This document shows, in pieces, positions 57,484-61,718 of a stretch of 64,000 nucleotides of DNA. The DNA is from an uncultured Draconibacterium sp. GTDB lineage: Bacteria; Bacteroidota; Bacteroidia; Bacteroidales; Prolixibacteraceae. The position numbers were made by a program, and so were the translations under genes. The DNA lies in NCBI RefSeq assembly GCF_963677155.1, contig NZ_OY781884.1:4832501-4896500 (forward strand). Reading direction: 5' to 3'. How positions within the stretch are numbered: the stretch's first letter is position 1; each line of letters begins with the position of its first letter. The notes beneath the pieces are model-generated. The model saw only the letters and a program-made list of their open reading frames with translations, was not told where the DNA came from and did no database searches.

Positions 57484-57591
57484 ACTTAAAGCCCCAAAGC
57501 GGAGAGCCGATTTGTATAATCTGCAATAAGTACGGATCGAAACCTTATATTTTCCCAATGTAAACTTTATCTGAAATCATTCCATATAAGC

Positions 57592-57621
57592 TTGCATTTA
57601 TCGAAAATCAATTTATATTTG
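57592..57621 (+). promoter_or_regulatory. Promoter of the aspartokinase/met leader
   Basis: TTG (57592-57594), 19 bases, TATATTTG (57614-57621): near-perfect consensus. It predicts a transcript starting about 57627, some 190 bases before the aspartokinase ATG, with the leader peptide near its 5' end. Confidence 0.7.
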
Positions 57622-57642
57622 TGGCAAACAAATTCGGCAAGA

Positions 57643-57735
57643 ATGAACATTGAGGCAAGAAATATTACTTCTTCTATCGCAGCTATCCGTTGCGGAGCAA
57701 TGTTTATGTCGTCTATGTTTATGTCTATGCGATAG
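57643..57735 (+). CDS. Methionine-rich leader peptide upstream of aspartokinase/met genes
   Basis: 30 codons and a TAG stop, starting about 16 bases after the predicted transcript start. Six Met codons in all; codons 20-29 read MFMSSMFMSM, five Met in ten codons. Four Ile, one Thr and one Cys codon add the other end-products of the aspartate and sulfur pathways. This is the plan of an amino-acid attenuator: ribosomes stall at Met codons when methionyl-tRNA is scarce and so change the folding of the following RNA. The downstream genes are an aspartokinase, metY and metA, exactly the pathway that such a sensor should control. Not known to me as a named leader. Confidence 0.65.
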   Translation: MNIEARNITSSIAAIRCGAMFMSSMFMSMR

Positions 57736-57768
57736 CCTTCATTCGATGGTTATTCGTTGTTTGAAGGC
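57674..57768 (+). promoter_or_regulatory. Candidate alternative RNA stems of the methionine attenuator
   Basis: CTATCGCA (57674-57681) can pair with TGCGATAG (57728-57735), enclosing the Met codons and the leader stop. The overlapping GCCTTCA (57735-57741) can pair with TGAAGGC (57762-57768). A stalled ribosome on the Met run would hide parts of the first stem. A strong U-run after the second stem is lacking, so the control could act on translation or by another stem. Confidence 0.4.
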
Positions 57769-57819
57769 ATTCCGTACAAGCGTTTATTACACAAACAAAA
57801 TTTCAAAAAAAATATTTTT

Positions 57820-59133
57820 ATGTCGGATAATGTTATTCGATTTGGTGGAAGCCATATTGGCAACCAAATAGCATCTCAAAATTTAAAAGCCTTTTTAACA
57901 GGCAGCACAAGCCGCAATTATGTGGTGGTTTCAGCTATTCCTGGGTTACTCGATTTTATTCAGTTTAACCTTGAACAGGTATTTCAAAACGAACTGGATG
58001 AAGAGGAAATCCTGAACGAGATTTGCGGATTCTATATTTGTGCAGTTGATGAGCAACCATCGGAAGTCTATACAAAATTAGCTAAACAGTTGGTTGGATT
58101 ACTAAAAGGAATCGGGCTTATCGGTGATTATTCCAGTGCTTTAAAAGATCAGGTATTGAGTTTTGCAGAAAAACTGTCGGTTGAAATTCTATCGTCGCTC
58201 TGGAACGAAGCAAGTATCATATATCCTGAAGAAATTGATTTGCAAGTGTCATCTGATTTTGGAAATGCAACTTTCCTTTCGGTCGATACGGATAAACTCA
58301 ATAATCTGAATGAAGGTTTTTACCTGATTCCAGGAACTTATGGAGTTAACGAAAACAAAAAACTGGTGAGAACCGGTAAAACAGCAGCCGATTATACAGC
58401 AGCTTTTCTTACCAAAGAACTAGGTATTGATACGCTGAAACTTTGGGGCCTCGACAGCGATTTTCAGCGGGCTAAGCCTGCAATTATCGATAATCCTGAG
58501 ATCATTAAGCGCCTTACGTATTCCGAGGCCAGTGAGCTGGCTTATTTCGAGCACTATTCGTTTCACCCACGGACGGTGGAACCGCTGGAATACGCTCATA
58601 TCCCGATTCAGGTGCTGAATGCTGAAACTGCCAACGGAGATGTGCAAACGGTCATCAATACCGAGACTTACATTGAGGAGCAGATTGTAAAAAGTGTAGC
58701 CTGCACCGACGATATTTCGCTGCTAAAGTTGGATGGACCGGGCGTTGGTTTAAAACCGGGTATCCTGGCAAAAGTTACCAATCAGTTGAACGATGCCGGG
58801 CTAAACATTAAGTCGGTGATTACCTCGCAAACGTCTATCAACTTTATCTTGAGTAAAGAAAATGGTGCAAAAGCACTAAACCTAGTGCACAAATTGGGCT
58901 TTTCGGCTGTTACTGATATCAAAGTAGTGAACGACGTGGCATTGATTGGTATTGTTGGCCACGGAATGCAGCAGGCTTACGGCGTGTCGGCAAAGATATT
59001 TGCTGCGGTGGCTAATAACAAAATTAATGTAATACTAAGCGGCTCCGGCGCATCCGACCTGGTAAGCTATTTGGTGGTGCAGGAATTCGACAAAGAAAAA
59101 AGTGTAAGAGAAATTTATAACGCGTTTTTCTAA
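57820..59133 (+). CDS. Divergent aspartokinase-like protein with ACT domains
   Basis: 437 residues. Amino-acid-kinase fold then two ACT regions: 'LKLDGPGVGLKPGILAKVTNQLNDAGLNIKSVITSQTSINFILSK' and 'VVNDVALIGIVGHGMQQAYGVSAKIFAAVANNKINVILSGSGASDLVSYLVV'. The family layout is clear ('LTYSEASELAYFEHYSFHPRTVEPLEYAHIPIQVLNAE'), but key catalytic motifs differ: KFGGTSV reads RFGGSHIG and GRGGSDYTAA reads GKTAADYTAA. Activity may be reduced, altered or lost. The ATG at 57820 fits the conserved start. Behind a methionine-rich leader peptide and ahead of metY and metA, it likely serves methionine synthesis or its regulation. Confidence 0.8.
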   Translation: MSDNVIRFGGSHIGNQIASQNLKAFLTGSTSRNYVVVSAIPGLLDFIQFNLEQVFQNELDEEEILNEICGFYICAVDEQPSEVYTKLAKQLVGLLKGIGLIGDYSSALKDQVLSFAEKLSVEILSSLWNEASIIYPEEIDLQVSSDFGNATFLSVDTDKLNNLNEGFYLIPGTYGVNENKKLVRTGKTAADYTAAFLTKELGIDTLKLWGLDSDFQRAKPAIIDNPEIIKRLTYSEASELAYFEHYSFHPRTVEPLEYAHIPIQVLNAETANGDVQTVINTETYIEEQIVKSVACTDDISLLKLDGPGVGLKPGILAKVTNQLNDAGLNIKSVITSQTSINFILSKENGAKALNLVHKLGFSAVTDIKVVNDVALIGIVGHGMQQAYGVSAKIFAAVANNKINVILSGSGASDLVSYLVVQEFDKEKSVREIYNAFF

Positions 59134-59204: not shown

Positions 59205-60649
<1,445 letters not shown>

Positions 60650-60800: not shown

Positions 60801-61718
60801 ATGCCACTAAATATAAACGACAAATTACCGGCAATTGAGATCCTTCGCGAGGAGAATATTTTTGTAATAGATTCATCGCGGGCTTCGCACCAGGATATAC
60901 GACCACTAAAAATTGTGATTTTAAACCTGATGCCGTTGAAAATATCAACAGAAACGGATTTGCTTCGTTTGTTGTCCAATTCGCCTTTGCAGATTGAAAT
61001 CGACTTTCTGAAAATAAAAGGACATACGCCAAAGAATACGTCATCGGAGCACATGAGCGAGTTTTACGATACTTTTGATGAATTGAAAAACAAAAAGTAC
61101 GACGGAATGATTATTACTGGCGCACCGGTTGAACAACTTGAATTTGAAGATGTAACGTATTGGGATGAAATGAAGGAGATCCTCGACTGGGCTGAGCATA
61201 ACGTAACTTCGTCGTTGTTTATTTGTTGGGCGGCACAAGCGGCTTTATTTCATTATTATAAGGTTCCCAAATATCCGCTCAATAAAAAAATGTTTGGCGT
61301 TTTCGAACATCATTTGACCGATAATACGCTGCCAATATTCAGAGGTTTTGATGATGTCTTTTTTATACCACACTCGCGTCATACCGAAATTCGTAAAGAG
61401 GATATCGGGAAAGTAGATGAGCTGAAGGTTATTTCCTATTCGGATGAAGCCGGTGTGTCAATTGTAAAAGCTAAAAACGGCCGGCAATTGTTTGTCACCG
61501 GACACTCTGAATATTCACGAAACACCCTGGGAGGCGAGTATAAGCGTGATAAAGCCAAAAATTTACCCATCGAAATTCCTAAAAATTACTATCCGGATAA
61601 CGATCCATCGAAAATTCCGGTTATGCGCTGGAAATCAACAGCAAACTTGTTGTTCTCCAATTGGCTGAATTATTACGTTTATCAGGAAACACCATACGAC
61701 CTGGAGCAAATAAGTTAA
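60801..61718 (+). CDS. metA: Homoserine O-acyltransferase (MetA family)
   Basis: 305 residues. Activates homoserine with an acetyl or succinyl group for methionine synthesis. 'KIVILNLMPLKISTETDLLRLLSNSPLQIEIDFLKIKGHTPKNTSSEHMSEFY' is the family opening; the nucleophile is Cys142 in 'FICWAAQAAL'; 'GHSEYSRNTL' holds His235 and Glu237 of the triad; 'RWKSTANLLFSNWLNYYVYQ' closes it. With a MetY-type enzyme next door the acyl donor is probably acetyl-CoA, though many MetA proteins cannot be told apart by eye. ATG at 60801 begins the conserved 'MPLNI' start. Confidence 0.93.
   Translation: MPLNINDKLPAIEILREENIFVIDSSRASHQDIRPLKIVILNLMPLKISTETDLLRLLSNSPLQIEIDFLKIKGHTPKNTSSEHMSEFYDTFDELKNKKYDGMIITGAPVEQLEFEDVTYWDEMKEILDWAEHNVTSSLFICWAAQAALFHYYKVPKYPLNKKMFGVFEHHLTDNTLPIFRGFDDVFFIPHSRHTEIRKEDIGKVDELKVISYSDEAGVSIVKAKNGRQLFVTGHSEYSRNTLGGEYKRDKAKNLPIEIPKNYYPDNDPSKIPVMRWKSTANLLFSNWLNYYVYQETPYDLEQIS

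Follow-up and report, generated by a model that had tools for sequence, protein, structure and literature searches.

The aspartokinase (AK), metY and metA genes in a 64,000-nucleotide stretch of Draconibacterium DNA (the window) lie behind a short predicted ORF whose methionine codons cluster close to the stop. We favour, with moderate confidence and on the strength of sequence comparison, the reading that this leader is a translation-dependent leader-peptide attenuator of the AK, metY and metA genes. Direct sensing of charged Met-tRNA, which the first-pass annotation of this DNA had proposed, would fit the same comparisons; we infer both the Met-tRNA sensing and the shut-off step. Leaders carrying Met-x-Met also stand behind SAM-I aptamers across many families, and this is a more interesting result than the AK leader itself.

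The leader ORF and its conservation

The source genome of the window is a single contig of 5.27 Mb, and the closest named orthologues of its AK are those of Draconibacterium (90-91% identity; NCBI placement Prolixibacteraceae, Marinilabiliales, Bacteroidota). Features of the locus are collected in Table 1. The promoter proposed at first pass was borne out: both TTG and TATATTTG are present, the latter invariant in 29/29 aligned loci of the same genus and the former nearly so. The promoter type was assigned from the pattern TAnnTTTG, which we take to be the Bacteroidota -7 box. The annotated gene order holds as well, with AK beginning 84 nt past the leader stop and metY and metA following.

Table 1. 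Positions in the window of the leader, its paired elements and the neighbouring genes
Feature	Position	Strand	Description
Promoter	57592..57621	+	TTG 57592-57594 (-33 region) and TATATTTG 57614-57621 (-7 box)
P1 5′ arm	57635..57652	+	CGGCA of the 5′ UTR (57635-57639) and leader start ATGAACATTG (57643-57652)
Met leader ORF (predicted)	57643..57735	+	30 codons and TAG, ends M-S-M-R; conserved, in phase
P1 apical hairpin	57677..57695	+	TCGCAGC/GTTGCGG; both-side changes at all 7 pairs across relatives
P1 3′ arm	57698..57711	+	CAATGTTTATGTCG, overlaps Met codons 20 and 22
P2 hairpin	57735..57768	+	GCCTTC...GAAGGC; its first base is the third base of the leader stop codon
Aspartokinase (AK) with ACT domains	57820..59133	+	First structural gene
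metY (Cys/Met metabolism PLP enzyme)	59349..60649	+	Frameshift near 60.09 kb; domain scan of the first part
metA (homoserine O-succinyltransferase family)	60801..61718	+	

The leader ORF reads MNIEARNITSSIAAIRCGAMFMSSMFMSMR up to its stop; the ORF list gives it an upstream TTG start. Methionine occupies codons 1, 20, 22, 25, 27 and 29, as the first-pass annotation had counted, five of the six falling within codons 20-29. By position and phase this predicted ORF corresponds to the short ORF that a leader attenuator carries between promoter and biosynthetic operon, and its five clustered codons are those of the regulated amino acid. It was the only one among the 540 ATG-initiated ORFs of 15-70 amino acids in the window to have at least four Met in the last 11 residues, and none of 20,000 dinucleotide shuffles of positions 57484-57819 yielded such a Met-tailed ORF.

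Conservation within the genus was analyzed by a search of 61 genomes, from which 30 AK loci were fetched, all of them belonging to the same genus as grouped by the search tool, with records named Maribellus sharing contigs with it. One of the 30 (L031) came without upstream sequence, and six further genomes of the genus, which lacked a full AK match or gave fragments, were left out. The leader was present in the remaining 29 loci, that of the window included, with a length of 30-37 codons from the conserved ATG; it was also found in a further genome of the genus in which AK is split (L034), that is, at 30/30 examined genus loci. Comparison of 44 AK leaders, comprising these 29 and 15 named loci outside the set, showed that reading from the first ATG past the promoter box reaches the last Met codon in frame in 43/44, the two lying 81, 84, 87, 90 or 93 nt apart. 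The exception (L056) has an earlier ATG out of phase, followed almost immediately by a stop. At the hairpin-proximal end, ATG-NNN-ATG was found in all 44 leaders, and the codon after the last Met is Arg in 39, with Gln, Cys or His seen otherwise. The expected conservation of the stop position was observed in most leaders, a stop coming right after that codon in 41/44, and was not seen in the rest. In the upstream alignment that had been proposed as a check, orthologues keep both Met run and hairpin, with the ORF in frame in the 43 leaders already mentioned, while other codons drift. Some non-Met residues, namely Ser or Pro within the cluster and the final Arg, are conserved too, which counting of Met codons alone would not need.

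Presence of the leader followed that of metY. We collected 79 named AK loci and scored 64, after dropping one for short upstream sequence (L094) and setting aside 14, three without usable upstream sequence and 11 distant or partial. An ORF with Met-x-Met within its last 12 residues (MxM-tail ORF) was found upstream in 38/39 loci where AK is followed by metY and in 0/25 without metY; since 15 of the 39 overlap the same-genus set and the loci are related, these counts are not independent events. The single exception, L105, has a SAM-I aptamer and then an ordinary terminator in place of the leader. Conversely, the leader is absent from a record named Prolixibacteraceae in which AK lacks metY (L064). 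When the 11 distant or partial loci were added, with approximate AK starts, the counts became 38/41 and 1/34: two loci from other phyla (L097 and L111) have metY without the MxM tail, and an archaeal MAG (L108) has an MxM-tail ORF without metY.

Within the source genome, the fetched upstream regions of the other two aspartokinase genes showed no Met leader. A covariance model (R1) identified this element alone in its own genome and, with stricter filters, none in the other class genomes of a 295-genome set. As it matched only its own element, this model cannot show distant relatives; these were revealed by the AK/metY linkage. Two degenerate DNA patterns, each run on 395 class genomes, matched 16 and 13 genomes, and we found no leader among the matches apart from that of the window; the two best-looking peptides among the others (L134 and L145) were rejected because they overlap long ORFs of unrelated genes.

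Some peculiarities of the structural genes were also noted. The metY frameshift gives two overlapping ORFs, 59349-60095 and 60092-60649, in place of an ORF that is intact in D. orientale, and reflects either an error of sequencing or genuine damage to a methionine gene. The N-terminus of the AK reads MSDNVIRFGGS, with an Arg that is invariant in 18 aligned orthologues, at a position where aspartokinases usually have Lys (KFGGT); its kinase activity may thus be altered, judging from this substitution. The gap between AK and metY contains an inverted repeat, TCTCCCCGTATAAGGGGAGA, at 59265-59284.

Paired elements around the leader

The stem with the best support is P1, in which the 5′ UTR and the leader start codon pair with the first of the clustered Met codons; it did not figure among the stem candidates of the first-pass annotation. 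An alignment of 29 loci (A1) gave a consensus fold of P1 and P2 with 31 pairs. Pairing was kept in 94.2% of the cells of A1, compared to 86.5% in shuffled alignments, and 73 cells had changed on both sides, compared to 25.0, neither value being reached in any of 500 shuffles. Sliding the partners by 1 to 3 columns lowered pairing to 32.5-51.7%. Because related sequences can exceed shuffles of this type, a second test was applied to P1, using 20 representatives, grouped by hand according to similarity. Duplexes between cognate arms had a mean energy of -15.48 kcal/mol, compared to -10.15 kcal/mol for swapped arms, and 0/20,000 permutations matched this value. Beyond the genus, the sequence of P1 differs yet its pairing is kept.

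The outer helix of P2 comprises six pairs that form in every aligned sequence and, being nearly invariant, say little on covariation; the inner helix covaries. This stem, 57735-57741 with 57762-57768, was one of a pair of overlapping candidates at first pass and proved real. Its overlapping partner, 57674-57681 with 57728-57735, was rejected, as the eight pairs are complete in just 4/29 aligned loci, the window among them. An extended P2 base, GCGCU/AGCGU, was likewise discarded (87.9% pairing, no higher than in shuffles, and an absence of covariation). In the consensus fold P1 and P2 can coexist, so that it provides no mutually exclusive hairpins of the antiterminator and terminator kind. The folding energy of the window RNA lies 3.48 standard deviations below that of shuffles, although the fold of lowest energy for this RNA departs from the consensus in its details. 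Rfam scans at gathering thresholds identified no family at the leader locus, and those at E values up to 10 gave four implausible matches far under the gathering scores; neither threshold produced a match to the SAM-I aptamer (RF00162), Bacteroid-trp (RF01692) or a T-box at this element. The TGTCG engaged in P1 recurs in the AK start itself, ATGTCG (57820-57825), a repetition not kept in two of the loci (L025 and L030); pairing of the 5′ UTR element with the AK start is thus conceivable too.

P2 mostly lacks a U-tract, and no hairpin followed by a U-tract, as in an intrinsic terminator, was found at the leader of the window. In the terminator scan P2 was terminator-like in 3/29 AK leaders, that of the window not among them. 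Of the attenuator proposed at first pass, the translation-dependent Met leader is well supported by the conservation of its Met run and reading frame, and the overlapping stem is not conserved; the downstream hairpin is not a textbook terminator. In one leader (L184) a strong hairpin is followed by TGTTTTTT at the leader end, a sequence that suggests that intrinsic termination may occur in some members. The scan is lenient, as it passes 11/45 SAM-I loci of the order, several of them with hairpins inside an ORF or with weak T-stretches. The spacer between leader and AK contains 15.2% C and 7.2% G, with C exceeding G in 43/44 leaders compared to 20/43 control upstream regions. A G-poor spacer suits Rho and equally an open initiation region, and is weak evidence for Rho.

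Met-x-Met leaders behind SAM-I aptamers

Rfam scans of relatives placed SAM-I aptamers ahead of AK or metY in further families of the order. We assembled 45 SAM-I loci of the order: 27 from scans of relatives, 17 of 20 that were fetched (three duplicates dropped) and the one in the source genome. A short ORF begins within 30 nt of the aptamer end in 39/45, at 9-15 nt in 36 of these, and is missing in L105, L155, L156, L157, L166 and L196. Where several ATGs fell inside these 30 nt, we took the ORF with most MxM and, next, the longest one; L187 loses its Met tail if the first ATG alone is used. Met-x-Met was found in the leader ORF of 28/45 loci, 12 of the 28 being one metH-operon leader from one genus, and three of the short ORFs (L177, L189 and L195) have a single Met near the end.

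In the 30 best metY loci, drawn from 119 genomes of which 51 had a match, Rfam placed a SAM-I aptamer before metY in 13, each from a different family. A short ORF follows in 12/13, with Met-x-Met in 8/12. All 12 of these leaders have a Met within the last 8 residues, a result matched by 0/20,000 residue shuffles, the 8-residue cut-off having been set after the peptides were inspected. SAM-I was missing from the other 17 metY loci. An MxM-tail ORF stands at two of them (L179 and L197), and 11 lack both such an ORF and an adjoining AK; in the rest, AK lies directly upstream and puts the leader region out of view (three loci) or the upstream sequence is short (one).

The source genome itself contains one SAM-I aptamer found with stricter filters, on the minus strand at G000:C1:2762012-2762122 (L168 7013-7123). 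According to Pfam, it precedes genes for a homocysteine biosynthesis enzyme, an NIL/4Fe-4S protein and the B12-dependent methionine synthase metH, and the leader of this operon, ending in HGANMCMRQRF before its stop, opens 11 nt past the aptamer. The first-pass annotation had set the AK leader in contrast with SAM riboswitches. For the clade this contrast fails, since a leader of the same kind stands behind SAM-I in relatives and in the metH operon of the same genome. Two draft genomes of the genus (L157 and L166) have no leader in the metH operon, and their structural gene begins 11-12 nt past the aptamer; provided the assemblies are correct, this would be a natural deletion of the leader. 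That the gene start takes the place of the leader suggests that the aptamer acts on whichever initiation site lies there.

Class-wide, SAM-I was found in 210/295 genomes. The 30 loci examined from these, which are the best-scoring ones and not a random draw, had no MxM leader near the aptamer, and 22/30 had terminators. Six loci with AK and no metY (L072, L075, L077, L083, L084 and L086) have SAM-I and downstream of it a tiny ORF that carries a conserved R-M-P close to the end; in most of the six this overlies a hairpin resembling GCCC/GGGC. By their sequence, these short ORFs are possibly a one-Met sibling of the AK leader. No aptamer was found at AK-metY-metA of Prolixibacteraceae, where P1 covers the start codon. 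For the order as a whole we propose, tentatively and with slightly more doubt than belief, that the terminator platform which SAM-I usually has in the class was replaced by a small ORF ending in Met-x-Met to give a two-input device, and that the Prolixibacteraceae AK copy is an aptamer-free form with P1 as its lid.

Proposed mechanism, alternatives and significance

The proposed attenuator would work as follows. A pioneer ribosome would initiate the leader before P1 is able to form. When Met-tRNA is scarce, it would stall on codons 27 and 29, the final pair of Met codons, which are invariant and lie at 57721-57723 and 57727-57729. We estimate that the footprint of a ribosome extends some 12-13 nt past the first base of the A-site codon. 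On this basis, the stalled ribosome would reach part of P1 as well as the 5′ arm of P2; formation of P2 would be prevented and transcription would run on into AK-metY-metA. When Met is ample, the ribosome would reach the stop and depart, P2 would fold, P1 would shut the leader start against re-initiation and expression would stop. Given the rarity of a U-tract after P2 and the low G content of the spacer before AK, the off step would probably be termination aided by Rho or by pausing. Where the leader start follows the end of a SAM-I aptamer by about 9-15 nt, as in many relatives and in the metH operon of the source genome, the aptamer probably gates leader initiation; in such a two-input device the aptamer, through SAM, would set the leader start and the fate of the ribosome at the last Met codons, through Met-tRNA, would set expression.

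Several other readings of the same data have to be weighed. We give practically no credence to a chance ORF, with a Met run that arises from repetitive sequence rich in ATG: repetitive though the cluster looks (ATGTTTATGTC...), shuffling never reproduced it, it is kept throughout the examined genus loci and in other genera, and it follows metY linkage, so that conservation refutes this explanation. It is also improbable that P1, P2 and the linker make up a metabolite-binding riboswitch in which the ORF is incidental. Such a riboswitch would account for the high nucleotide conservation inside the ORF and for the strong covariation; against it, the ORF stays in phase in 43/44 leaders across several length classes, the MxM motif recurs downstream of SAM-I aptamers, and P1 pairs the start region of the leader ORF itself.

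Two further readings keep the leader as a translated ORF. The peptides TnaC, which arrests with tryptophan, and plant CGS1, which arrests with SAM, are precedents for nascent-peptide arrest, here at M-x-M-R-stop, with the chain sensing methionine or SAM in the exit tunnel and residues mattering rather than codons. We regard this as rather unlikely. The universal last M-x-M, the Arg (39/44) and stop (41/44) that follow, the Pro or Ser kept ahead of it and the reduction of clustered Met to two in some relatives all suit arrest, but the conserved ends may equally be due to RNA pairing, as P1 and P2 overlap the ORF; moreover, Gln, Cys or His can take the place of the Arg, and the tail of SAM-linked leaders varies widely. 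Alternatively, the leader could act on translation or message stability, its translation or the stalling on it protecting the message or aiding AK initiation. This reading, which we hold to be unlikely while giving it real weight, draws on the terminator scan, which fails in 26/29 leaders, and on the G-poor spacer, which should leave the AK start accessible. It is countered by the 84 nt that separate the AK start from the leader, with no overlap or visible sequestration, by the L184 hairpin with its TGTTTTTT, and by the terminators of the best class-wide SAM-I loci.

Methionine genes are usually under SAM riboswitches, MetJ or T-boxes. For this reason, and because every ORF starts with Met, methionine is the least expected amino acid for a leader attenuator. 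The classical amino-acid leader-peptide attenuators are those of the trp, his, thr and leu operons. The AK leader resembles them in having a promoter, a short ORF with cognate codons, a hairpin at the ORF end and a biosynthetic operon. It differs in that it uses methionine, places P1 over its own start codon and has no conserved antiterminator, in that its hairpin mostly lacks a U-tract, and in that the leader of relatives stands behind a SAM-I aptamer. The Bacteroid-trp RNA motif (RF01692) has a role as a Trp-codon leader. The AK leader shares with it the type of a Bacteroidetes candidate cis-regulatory RNA and differs in the amino acid, going by the name of the motif, and in structure. This motif appears in Table 1 of PMC2864571.

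Other comparisons can be drawn with systems as they appear in excerpts of the literature. Cysteine-run leaders of Actinobacteria, as described in the portion of PMC1262725 at hand, have cognate codons near the stop and no obvious terminator, and Rho was suggested for them; that study did not find conserved RNA structures for actinobacterial methionine operons. These leaders differ from ours in amino acid, in phylum and in having no conserved hairpins, whereas P1 and P2 of the AK leader covary. The Xanthomonas SAM-I riboswitch senses both SAM and uncharged initiator tRNA according to the available text of PMC7270179. In both cases one leader RNA would report SAM and the methionyl-tRNA state to met genes, but the Xanthomonas RNA binds tRNA and frees the Shine-Dalgarno sequence (same excerpt), while the second input here would be the position of a ribosome on a Met-codon ORF. 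The metE and ppe2 genes of Mycobacterium tuberculosis have B12 riboswitches with translated uORFs, as the partial text of PMC11260477 reports, and thus also a small ORF that, by being translated, determines expression of what lies downstream; the ligand is another one, no cognate-codon run is described in that text, and ppe2 has a stop/start overlap, whereas here the main genes begin tens to hundreds of nt past the leader. Short ORFs reminiscent of leader peptides are mentioned for 5′ UTRs of B. thetaiotaomicron in the excerpt of PMC7366714. The passages at hand from PMC6429828 and PMC1273637 contain nothing on a Met leader, and a search of titles and abstract beginnings in PMC, which excludes subscription papers and preprints, found no methionine leader peptide that is from Bacteroidota or coupled to a SAM riboswitch.

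If the proposed reading is true, a single transcript would serve, across many families, to read both SAM, as end product, and the charged tRNA. SAM-I with a terminator, SAM-I with a leader and the leader alone would then form a natural series in which the exchange of expression platforms could be studied. The finding also bears on the question whether attenuation in Bacteroidota operates without U-tract terminators.
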